NCBI GenBank assembly: GCA_021810105.1
Contig: JAJZJM010000001.1
Coordinates: forward strand, 1-64,000
Length of the DNA stretch: 64,000 nt
Source of the DNA: Microcaldota archaeon
GTDB lineage: Archaea; Micrarchaeota; Micrarchaeia; Micrarchaeales; Micrarchaeaceae
Reading direction: 5' to 3'
Below are positions 2,945 to 63,557 of this stretch, piece after piece. The position numbers and the translations under genes were made by a program. The notes under the pieces are model-generated. The model worked only from the letters and a program-made list of their open reading frames with translations. It made no database searches and had not been told where the DNA came from. Every line of letters begins with the position of its first letter. The stretch's first letter is position 1.

Positions 2945-3778
2945 TCAGCAGAATGCGAACGCAGCGTAATCTACAATGCTTTCTGTGTCATCAGTATGGC
3001 TTCCAGAATCCGACCTGTCCAACATCAAACCTTTCGAGGCATTCGCGGCTTTCGCAAACATCATAGATACAGCTATAGGTCCATATCCGCATGAGCTCTC
3101 ATTCTGGCGCTCCTTTTCTCTGTAGAATCCTTCTACGTCCATAGACTCTATGCGGTTGAATAATGGAATGTCCTTTCTGTCTGCAACGCTCCTTGATTCG
3201 TAGTGGTTGAAATCAGAGCTTGCTATTACTATTGCCTTTCTGCAGGTAGAATCCAAAGCTTTTATTACAGCTCCGGAAAGAAGGCCTGCCGCTTCTATGC
3301 TCTGGTCGCCCATGCAGATGAAGCAGCATTTTACATCTGGAAATAGCTGCTTGATGAAAGGCAGCTGCACCTCAACAGAATGCTCATTCTTGTGCGCAAC
3401 CTCGTCTTTCTGTATGCCTTTTACCTTGCATATCTCATTTGAAAGCTCTTTGTCATTGTATGCTACGCCCAGAGGGGTCATCCAGTCCTGCATAGATACG
3501 GATACGGGTTTCCCCTCTCCAGTATGGTTTGGCCCTATCACTATCACAGATTCTATAGACTCTATCTCTTTTTTGCCAAGCATAGCTGAGTAAGCATGCG
3601 CAGCTGTCCTTCCGGAGTATATATAACCAGCATGCGGCACTACGTAAGATACAGCATCCTCTACATCATGTTTCAGCCTTACCTCCTTGATAGCCTTGTC
3701 TATGAAGTTTGCCAGCTCGTCCCTGTCTGCTGGATAAAAATTGCCTGCTACTGCGCTATTTCGCATTTTATCGAACAT
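2945..3778 (-). CDS. MEMO1 family protein (AmmeMemoRadiSam system protein B)
   Basis: MRNSAVAGNFYPADRDEL, PHAGYIYSGRTAAHAY, IGPNHTG, SSDFNHYE motifs. Confidence 0.9.
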   Translation of the reverse strand: MFDKMRNSAVAGNFYPADRDELANFIDKAIKEVRLKHDVEDAVSYVVPHAGYIYSGRTAAHAYSAMLGKKEIESIESVIVIGPNHTGEGKPVSVSMQDWMTPLGVAYNDKELSNEICKVKGIQKDEVAHKNEHSVEVQLPFIKQLFPDVKCCFICMGDQSIEAAGLLSGAVIKALDSTCRKAIVIASSDFNHYESRSVADRKDIPLFNRIESMDVEGFYREKERQNESSCGYGPIAVSMMFAKAANASKGLMLDRSDSGSHTDDTESIVDYAAFAFC

Positions 3779-59240: not shown

Positions 59241-60194
59241 CTATGGTTTTTTCTTCTTGGGCTGGCCAGTGTTTGCTGCATCTTGCTGGTCCCTGTCCTT
59301 GACAAACTCCTCCATGCCCCTTATGCCAAAAGGCATAGGTATGCTGAAGCCCTTGGTCTCTGTAGGTATAAACACCATGACGTTCTTTCCGGTCAGGCTT
59401 ATCTCGTACATCATGTTTAGCGCACGAAGCTGCATTGCATAAGGGTCAGTTTCATACTTCTTGGCGGCCTCCAGCATCTTGTCCGCGGCCAGGGATTCGC
59501 TCTCTGCCAGTATGACTCTCGCCTGCTTCTCCCTGTCCGAAGTGGCAACGCGCGCCATGGCATTCTGCAACTCCGGAGGTATTGTGACGTCGCGTATCTC
59601 TACAGATATCGCGGTTATGCCCCAGTTCTCTATTCTCTGTTCTATCAGGCCCTGTATGTCTTTTCCGATTATATCCCTACCAGCCAGCATGGAAGAGAGT
59701 TCGGCCTTTCCTATTATGTCTCGCATCGCGGTCTGTGATGCAAGCAATACTGAATCGTAATAAGATTGCACATTGAGTATGGTTCTCTCTGGGTTATTTA
59801 CCTGCCAGAAAAGTATGGCATCTACGTCGACAGGAACGTTGTCCTTTGTTAGGGTCTTTTCCGCTTTGAATGCGGTGCTTATTACCCTGATGTCTATTGT
59901 TGATGTTGTAGCGTCTATGAGAGGGACTATGAGATACAGTCCAGGACCTATTATTCCAACATATTTGCCAAGCCTCAAGACGGCCTTTCTGTTCCACTGG
60001 CTGAGTATTCTTATAGATAAAGCAAAAACTAATATAATGAATAGAACAAACCCGCCCACTACGCCAGCATATCCCGCAAGGTAGTAGCCGCCGCCAACCA
60101 GTATTATAAACATAAGTATGTCTGCGCCAAGTGCTGCAGCCACATTGTAAGGCTTTGCTGATGAGTTTGTTTTCATCGTGTCCATTTTATCCAA
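59241..60194 (-). CDS. SPFH/band 7 (stomatin-like) protein
   Basis: RILSQWNRKAVLRLGKYVGIIGPGLYLIVPLIDATTSTIDIR ... VPVDVDAILFWQVNNPERTILNVQSY. Confidence 0.93.
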   Translation of the reverse strand: MDKMDTMKTNSSAKPYNVAAALGADILMFIILVGGGYYLAGYAGVVGGFVLFIILVFALSIRILSQWNRKAVLRLGKYVGIIGPGLYLIVPLIDATTSTIDIRVISTAFKAEKTLTKDNVPVDVDAILFWQVNNPERTILNVQSYYDSVLLASQTAMRDIIGKAELSSMLAGRDIIGKDIQGLIEQRIENWGITAISVEIRDVTIPPELQNAMARVATSDREKQARVILAESESLAADKMLEAAKKYETDPYAMQLRALNMMYEISLTGKNVMVFIPTETKGFSIPMPFGIRGMEEFVKDRDQQDAANTGQPKKKKP

Positions 60195-60237: not shown

Positions 60238-60987
60238 TCACCCCCATATGTCCTTCTTTATCTTTTCTTTTGGAGTGCCGACAGAAAGCAGAGCTGCCTC
60301 TACAGATTTGCCAAAATCGTTCGAGCCGCATATGTACGCTGCCCTCTCAGCCGCATCCGGAACGTCTCTGCGGAGCATATCAGCATTAATCCTACCCGCC
60401 TCCCTCTTCCATGCTTCTGGTTGAAATTCTTGTGTTCCTTCATCAGACCTTGTTATTGTTATTGTAACAGAAAGCCCGCGTATACTCTTTATCATGCTGG
60501 CTAGCTCCTCTCTCCTTGCTATCTCCTCTGTGTGCTTCAGACTCCATAACAGATGTATATCTGCGTTTCCGCCACTGCCATTGCGTAAAATTTCTCTTAG
60601 AGCAGACCTGAATGGCGCATATCCAGTGCCGCCTGCAACGAAAAGCATTTTGCTGTTCGGTTGATCAATGGTAAATTTGCCGTGCGGTCCTTCTATGATA
60701 AAAACGTCACCAACCTCTGCCTCAATAAAATGAGATGGCCTATTGTGCGGTTCCTTTATTGCGAGCACGTCTATATTATTTGACGATGGCTCAGAAGCAA
60801 CAGAGAAAGCCCTCTTGGGAAATGTTTTTCCTTGCGAGTCGATACCTCCTATCATCACGAACATTCCTGGCAGAAACTGTATGTTATTGCCGTCGTGTGG
60901 CATAAACGATAAAAAGAGGTCTTTTGGAGTCTCTTCTACTTTTTCATACAATACGTATCTTTTAGAAGAGATATTTTTTACTACCAT
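60238..60987 (-). CDS. FAD/NAD-binding oxidoreductase (ferredoxin-NADP reductase-like), start revised to MVVKNISSKRYVLYE
   Basis: KRAFSVASEPSSNNIDVLAIKEPHNRPSHF, GPHGKFTID, LFVAGGTGYAPFRSALREIL; listed N-terminal extension overlaps the Cys-rich smORF in another frame. Confidence 0.8.
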   Translation of the reverse strand: MVVKNISSKRYVLYEKVEETPKDLFLSFMPHDGNNIQFLPGMFVMIGGIDSQGKTFPKRAFSVASEPSSNNIDVLAIKEPHNRPSHFIEAEVGDVFIIEGPHGKFTIDQPNSKMLFVAGGTGYAPFRSALREILRNGSGGNADIHLLWSLKHTEEIARREELASMIKSIRGLSVTITITRSDEGTQEFQPEAWKREAGRINADMLRRDVPDAAERAAYICGSNDFGKSVEAALLSVGTPKEKIKKDIWG

Positions 60988-61021
60988 GACGTGCCTCTTT
61001 TTGGTTAATGCGCTTATACGC

Positions 61022-61150
61022 TCAGCAGCAGTCGCATCCACACTTATTTTTTCTTCCAGAGCAATGCTTGCATGAACAGCATCCGCAGCATTTTGCATAG
61101 CAGCCATCCGTATTTGAGCTCTTTGCCCTCTTCTTAGCCTTTGCTACCAT
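61022..61150 (-). CDS. 42-aa cysteine-rich mini-protein (metal-binding candidate)
   Basis: MVAKAKKRAKSSNTDGCYAKCCGCCSCKHCSGRKNKCGCDCC* (11 Cys). Not in the supplied ORF track (<60 aa). Confidence 0.7.
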   Translation of the reverse strand: MVAKAKKRAKSSNTDGCYAKCCGCCSCKHCSGRKNKCGCDCC

Positions 61151-61198
61151 ATTCGATATATGCCACTCAAAATATTTATACTGTAAGAAAAAGTTCTT

Positions 61199-62225: not shown

Positions 62226-63557
62226 GTGACATCCTCCCACCACTGAAGGTGGTGGGCTTCCAATGGTGGTTTTTTGATTGGTCATCTTGAACCACCAAGT
62301 ATAGTTCCTGATTCACTGACGGCTGCCTCCTGTAATTGAGGTCTTACAGCGTCTCCAGAGGCGTTACTTCCCGCAAGTCCTGCGGTAGTCAGGATATTTA
62401 TTGAGGCATTCAAATCTCTGTCAATCTTCAGTCCGCAATTTTGGCAGAGATATGTCCTTTCACTCAATCCTATATCCTGTATGTTTCCACATTTACTGCA
62501 TGTCCTTGTTGTGTTCCTTGGGTTCACACCTACAACTCTGCAACCAGCACTTTCAGCCTTGTAACAAAGATATTGGGTGAAATTGCCCCAAGAAGCATCC
62601 GTTATCTGTCTTGCAAGATTATGGTTCTTTGCCATATTCGCAATCTTCAGTTCCTCGTATGCAATGAATGAGTATGAATTGGCAAGACGATATGAGGTCT
62701 TGTGAAGGAAGTCGTCCCTCTGCCTTGCGATATGTTCCGATATCCTTGCAAGTTTTATCTTTGTCCTTCTCCTGTTCTTGCCTCCTTTCTTCTTGTTTGA
62801 AAGCCTTCTCTGGATTGTTTTCAATTTGCAGATGGATTTATCCGAGATTCTCGGATTTGGGATTCTTGTTCCATCAGACAAAGTTGCGTATTCCTTTAGT
62901 CCCAAGTCCATCCCTACTTGTGGTTTATTGTTTGAGAAGAGAGAGATATCTTCCTTTTCAGTGGAAAATGTGACATACCATTCCTGCGATTTTGTCTGTT
63001 TTATCGCAAGTGTCTTTATCTTTCCTTCTATCTCCCTATGATTGACGAAATTGACCCTGCCGATTTTTGAAACGGAAACCTTTTTCTTTTCGAGTTTGAA
63101 ACCAGACTGTGGGTATGTCAATGAAGAGACGTATGATTTGAAACGTGGGAAACCTACCTTGACTTTCTTTCCTTGTTTTCTTTCCTTTATCCTTCTGAAG
63201 AAGTTCTTGTATGCTTTTGAGACCCTGTCCGCGACATTCTGGCAGACTTGGGAATATAGTTCATTGAATTCTGGGTTCTTCTTTTTGAGTTTTGTAATCC
63301 ACTTGTTCATGTCGTATTTCGTGAAGGTCTTTCCAGTTTCCTTGAAGTATTTTTGTGATTGTTCAAGAAGAAGGTTGTAGAGTTGTTTCGAGAGATACAT
63401 CTGACGGTTGAGTGTTGATTTCTGCGACTGCGACGGATATGCCCTGTATCTGTACGTCTTTTTCAAGATGAACATATCCTTTTCACAATTAATCTTATAT
63501 GTGTTGCGGTTCGCTTTCATCCCACGATTGAAATCATGGGTTTTCCCGCTCACATTT
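62226..63557 (-). mobile_element. Solo TnpB element copy 4
   Basis: Same ends; left end abuts TTTAT; right-end hairpin 62236-62256. Confidence 0.92.
62282..63553 (-). CDS. tnpB: TnpB RNA-guided nuclease (true start probably at internal MFILKKTYRYRAYPS)
   Basis: RuvC and zinc-finger motifs intact; N-terminal extension reads through the left end. Confidence 0.93.
   Translation of the reverse strand: MSGKTHDFNRGMKANRNTYKINCEKDMFILKKTYRYRAYPSQSQKSTLNRQMYLSKQLYNLLLEQSQKYFKETGKTFTKYDMNKWITKLKKKNPEFNELYSQVCQNVADRVSKAYKNFFRRIKERKQGKKVKVGFPRFKSYVSSLTYPQSGFKLEKKKVSVSKIGRVNFVNHREIEGKIKTLAIKQTKSQEWYVTFSTEKEDISLFSNNKPQVGMDLGLKEYATLSDGTRIPNPRISDKSICKLKTIQRRLSNKKKGGKNRRRTKIKLARISEHIARQRDDFLHKTSYRLANSYSFIAYEELKIANMAKNHNLARQITDASWGNFTQYLCYKAESAGCRVVGVNPRNTTRTCSKCGNIQDIGLSERTYLCQNCGLKIDRDLNASINILTTAGLAGSNASGDAVRPQLQEAAVSESGTILGGSR

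Follow-up and report, generated by a model that had tools for sequence, protein, structure and literature searches.

The question raised by this locus is whether the minus-strand DNA in front of an FNR-like oxidoreductase gene encodes a protein of its own and, if it does, what that protein is for. The window, meaning the whole stretch of 64,000 nucleotides analysed, comes from a genome of 821 kb (G000), and the features discussed are collected in Table 1. The minus-strand ORF of 42 residues with 11 Cys, translated as MVAKAKKRAKSSNTDGCYAKCCGCCSCKHCSGRKNKCGCDCC*, was present exactly as the sequence-only reading had described it: a Lys/Ser-rich N-terminal tail is followed by a Cys cluster at residues 17-42, and all 11 Cys fall within the final 26 residues. 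No signal sequence was seen. The position of its stop, 34 bp ahead of the ATG at 60987 of the FNR-like gene, was likewise confirmed from the ORF coordinates. In a simulation of 60 windows of 64 kb with the dinucleotide content of the window, the best stop-free stretches of 26 codons contained 5-7 Cys (n = 60 windows), compared with 11 in the real ORF. With homologues of the same Cys spacing in 15 genomes, G000 included, the ORF is a real gene that had escaped annotation, and the suspicion of a hidden gene at this position was correct.

Table 1. Features of the locus and of the related copy in the same genome
Feature	Position	Strand	Basis or remark
Cys-rich mini-protein CDS, 42 aa	61022..61150	(-)	ORF call, 14 homologous genes elsewhere in the phylum, dN/dS
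TATA box TATAAATA	61173..61180	(-)	30 nt upstream of the mini-gene ATG
FNR-like NAD(P)H flavin oxidoreductase, 249 aa	60238..60987	(-)	PF00175, PDB matches; downstream of the mini-gene
N-terminal extension of the oxidoreductase ORF, judged spurious	60988..61107	(-)	Ala-rich +1 frame of the Cys codons; considered non-coding
Eroded mini-gene copy, 36 aa, 3 Cys left	G000:C4, locus L088, ~3300-3430	(-)	Upstream of arsR-merA

The family of the mini-protein was determined by searching with the peptide and a profile against 301 genomes of the phylum, which is taken to be Micrarchaeota-like on the strength of one named relative of the FNR gene. Carriers amounted to 15 of the 301, G000 included, with a patchy distribution over two families of one order: G000, G017, G021, G015, G016, G034 and G067 in the family of the window, and G198, G209, G210, G211, G248, G250, G257 and G258 in the second family. 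The members are 37-45 aa long, and 14 of them have a dense core of 10-13 Cys; the G211 copy has diverged and retains fewer Cys, and its neighbourhood resembles that of G210. The pattern CC-x2-CC-x-CC-x-C-x2-C-x6-C-x-C-x-CC was found in most of the 15 carriers. In the alignment the Cys core is near-invariant, and the basic Lys/Ser-rich tail is present in all members but variable in sequence. Weaker matches in G061, G047, G075, G024, G030, G018, G072 and G046, together with a second match in G017 and those in G027 and G006, were discarded after inspection as chance Cys runs or pieces of other genes. No relatives of the mini-protein were found among viral contigs, plasmids and phages.

Codon conservation across relatives, which had been suggested as a check, was determined for the Cys-rich frame. 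The substitutions in the Cys core were distributed over codon positions 1, 2 and 3 in the ratio 300:323:702, and the pairwise dN/dS values were 0.04-0.37 where computable, many pairs being synonymously saturated. By these codon comparisons, purifying selection acts on the Cys core. Of the 15 family genes, 12 have a TATA-like box comparable to that of the window 28-39 nt ahead of their ATG, against a background of 0.8% of all ATGs within the window. Archaeal transcripts with a short leader or none have their TATA box at such a distance from the ATG, and the spacing in front of the mini-gene fits an archaeal mRNA that is leaderless or nearly so.

The members are short, have a very high Cys content with conserved CC, CxC and CxxC motifs, and contain few aromatic residues, which are the sequence characteristics of the metallothionein class. 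Eukaryotic metallothioneins (the mammalian alpha domain, yeast Cup1) have 11-12 Cys per domain in CC, CxC and CxxC motifs, with Lys next to Cys and no hydrophobic core. The mini-protein resembles them in the Cys count, in these motifs, in the Lys residues beside Cys and in the missing hydrophobic core; in contrast to them, it is archaeal and consists of a single short domain, and no relation was detected in the PDB sequence search. The SmtA/BmtA-type proteins (Synechococcus SmtA, Pseudomonas MT, Oscillatoria BmtA) are likewise small, cytosolic and Cys-rich. In the SmtA-type clusters, His residues also serve as ligands and a zinc-finger part is present (PMC7387436), whereas most mini-proteins of the second family are without His in the Cys core and have essentially no aromatic residue. 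The Cys density of the mini-family is also higher than in the SmtA type, with the Cys arranged in CC pairs, and a Lys-rich tail is present. No match for the mini-family was found in Pfam at E values up to 5 (13 members), in NCBIfam (two members tested) or in PDB with both profile and single-sequence searches. Membership of the SmtA-type bacterial metallothionein family was rejected on the Pfam and NCBIfam results. On sequence grounds, the mini-family is regarded as a new, undescribed family of a known functional kind, metallothionein-like, matching no described family tested.

Because 10-13 thiols in CC, CxC and CxxC motifs are packed into about 26 residues and a hydrophobic core is missing, the mini-protein is best read as a metal-thiolate peptide. 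We consider it probable (roughly 0.7) that it is a metallothionein-like peptide which would bind and buffer soft metals, the probable metal in the mer setting described below being Hg(II); the metal identity, the stoichiometry and a hand-off to MerA are what we infer for it. The cytosolic peptide would comprise a short basic tail and then about 26 residues with 10-13 Cys wrapping a soft-metal cluster, which might be of the four-metal thiolate or of the Cu(I)/Hg(II) type, and the bound metals would be sequestered or buffered. Within a mini-arsR-merA cassette, the mini-protein would keep Hg(II) bound until handing it over to MerA. The lineage of the window has an intact copy with its own promoter before the FNR-like reductase and a mer-linked copy minus the Cys core. 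The AlphaFold prediction on the 13-member alignment resulted in a pLDDT of 54 with no confident fold; this is uninformative, though expected for an apo metallothionein.

The best indication of function came from G250, in which the mini-gene is the first gene of a cluster, an ArsR/SmtB metalloregulator (NF033788, 72.5 bits, cutoff 55) begins 20 bp after its stop and MerA (TIGR02053, 555 bits, cutoff 454) follows. This MerA is core-only, without the N-terminal metal-binding domain, and at its end it has the tail with a Cys-Cys pair that mercuric reductases typically carry. On contig C4 of G000, the mer cluster is collinear with that of G250 over 2.2 kb with 76.7% nucleotide identity, and its ArsR is 84.5% identical to the G250 ArsR. 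The mini-gene copy in front of it reads MAKQKRKAKKDMAHAQEISQEEQPYKGGEMKCNCDC*; its Cys-rich core has been replaced, but it shares with the G250 gene the TATA box, the start codon and the C-terminal KGG..KC.C.C end. The conservation of these three elements implies that the mini-gene stood in the mer cassette before the copies of the two lineages separated. Since G000 and G250 belong to different families, the cassette has likely been transferred between their lineages. A MerA subclade (L082-L089) was observed to comprise eight genes over two families, seven of which are 79-83% identical to the G000 copy; for the remaining MerA loci in the comparison, the identity to G000 MerA is about 43-49%. 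The scattered occurrence of this subclade suggests a horizontal spread of the mer cassette among these archaea.

Comparable arrangements are known. In cyanobacteria, the metallothionein gene often neighbours that of an ArsR/SmtB-family repressor (PMC8790569, PMC7387436), and the mini-arsR order in G250 mirrors that pairing. ArsR-type regulators are found in the archaeal mer operons that have been described to date (PMC3466566, PMC3600143). The merRHAI operon of Sulfolobus contains the small TRASH-domain metallochaperone MerH, an ArsR-type regulator and merA (PMC3600143, PMC3466566). MerH is like the mini-protein small, clustered with an ArsR-type regulator and MerA, and metal-handling, as the mini-protein would be. 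In contrast to MerH, the mini-protein has a dense cluster of 12 Cys and not a TRASH domain; MerH/TRASH-domain membership was rejected, as Pfam gave no match and 12 closely packed Cys were seen instead. The MerA genes of Micrarchaeota have already been counted (PMC8261052), and the portion of that paper's text covered by the search mentions neither a metallothionein nor a cysteine-rich protein.

The mer setting gives rise to a narrower form of the preferred reading, in which the mini-protein would be a mercury-specific scavenger and chaperone that belonged to the mer system and subsequently spread or left the mer operons. Its place at the head of the G250 cassette and the eroded equivalent in G000 speak for this, and a core-only MerA, as found there, would make a distinct Hg(II) carrier plausible. 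On the other side, the mini-gene lies away from merA in most carriers, and at the threshold applied MerA was not matched in G017, G021, G015 and G016, so that Hg would not be the sole metal unless those genomes use the mini-protein without MerA. MerA was above the cut-off in 54 of the 301 genomes; no tight co-occurrence of the mini-gene and MerA across the phylum was seen when judged by eye, and among the 28 MerA loci checked that have an ArsR gene in their vicinity, no other case of a mini-gene was found. The mer link is thus strong for one cassette, intact in G250 and eroded in G000, and is not a property of all mer operons of the phylum. Outside the mer clusters of G250 and G000, no metal genes were identified next to the family genes, and a functional neighbourhood common to all members was sought and not found. 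We hold the mercury-specific form to be possible but rather doubtful.

The known metallothioneins come from eukaryotes and from some bacteria. The full-text literature search for the phrase 'archaeal metallothionein' in open-licence papers returned nothing, and for Thermococcus, work on cadmium tolerance described metallothionein as absent (PMC3407056). It is tempting, and at this stage speculative, to see in the mini-family the first archaeal metallothionein family. In the mer operon it would have served as a freestanding Hg(II)-thiolate reservoir feeding MerA, in place of MerH or of the N-terminal metal-binding domain of MerA, and copies would subsequently have been put to use for other soft metals. 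For these ultra-small archaea, a family that is conserved, bears promoters and in one instance heads a mercury-resistance cassette would be a concrete and easily tested candidate.

The Cys cluster might instead merely hold the fold of a zinc-structured basic peptide or regulator, the tail of which contacts DNA or RNA. A basic N-terminal tail is indeed found in every member, and the genes are mostly solitary with strong TATA boxes. However, 10-13 Cys per about 26 residues is far above the needs of a zinc finger, a hydrophobic or aromatic core is absent, the sequence of the tail is not conserved, and the mer linkage points to metal handling. A nucleic-acid-binding role is accordingly considered unlikely.

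The sequence-only reading had proposed a metallothionein-like or Fe-S/metal carrier partner of the reductase. Its metallothionein-like part agrees with the reading preferred here, whereas the dedicated partnership and the Fe-S carrier were not supported. According to that proposal, the mini-protein would be a metal or Fe-S carrier dedicated to the adjacent FNR-like reductase, which would reduce the peptide thiols or the metal. The oxidoreductase has PDB matches of the FNR/flavin reductase type, and the extended ORF 60238-61107 matched PF00175 with 54.4 bits. The mini-gene and the FNR gene lie on a common strand with a gap of 34 bp in G000, and in G021, whose FNR is 75% identical to that of the window, the mini-gene stands in the corresponding place with a gap of 31 bp. 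These are, however, the only two of the 15 carriers with the mini-gene directly before the FNR gene; elsewhere it adjoins unrelated genes, and the G250 copy heads the ArsR-MerA cluster. The FNR homologues were present in 72 of the 85 genomes of the family, including all 32 of good quality, while the mini-gene is rare, and the FNR gene of G019, a genome from the same genus, has no mini-gene ahead of it. The CC/CxC-rich Cys pattern is unlike that of ferredoxins: neither the CxxCxxCxxxCP nor the plant-type 2Fe-2S motif was present in the mini-family alignment, and Pfam and PDB gave no such match either. Judged from gene order, the mini-FNR pairing is a local arrangement and does not define the family, and a dedicated carrier for the reductase is improbable. 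In the lineage of G000 and G021 only, the two genes may be co-transcribed on a shared mRNA. A second FNR-like gene, 41% identical to that of the window, was observed at G000:C3:71221-71943, and the window FNR is one of two copies.

The longer oxidoreductase ORF runs, as had been claimed, through the DNA of the mini-gene in the +1 frame and has an Ala-rich start, which arises because TGC TGC shifted by one base is read as GCT GCT; Ala-rich +1 frames overlie the genes of the mini-family generally. In G021, the closest relative, a stop occurs in the extension frame 18 nt upstream of the FNR ATG, and the extension frame is thus neither open nor conserved in relatives. Conservation of this frame had been named beforehand as the finding that would speak against the mini-gene, and the outcome favoured the Cys-rich frame. 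From this comparison, the oxidoreductase extension is judged an artefact, consistent with the proposed mis-extension, and the FNR-like gene most likely starts at the ATG at 60987. The locus illustrates how genes for proteins of fewer than 45 aa are lost from annotation under a longer overlapping ORF. That there is no gene at all, only a low-complexity TGC run giving Cys codons by chance, accords with the abundant TGC repeats of the Cys core and with the Ala-rich +1 frame of the same cause, but it is refuted by the comparative data, since the homologues in both families keep the same Cys spacing and differ by synonymous TGC/TGT exchanges, dN/dS is well under 1, the start codon and TATA box are conserved and the simulated maximum was 7 Cys.

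Two further genes near the mini-gene were noted. An SPFH/stomatin-like gene at 59241-60194 (-) of the window lies within about 4 kb of the mini-gene in G000 and G021, and such a gene was also seen within that distance in the flanks of G015 and G016 (L066, L065), on different sides; this may reflect an old linkage or may be due to chance. Between the genes of an amino-acid permease and a DnaJ-domain protein, the window contains an ORF of 423 aa at 62282-63553 (-) that is TnpB-like (IS605 OrfB-type) by its sequence; it looks like a recent insertion because in G021 the permease and DnaJ-domain genes are adjacent without it.
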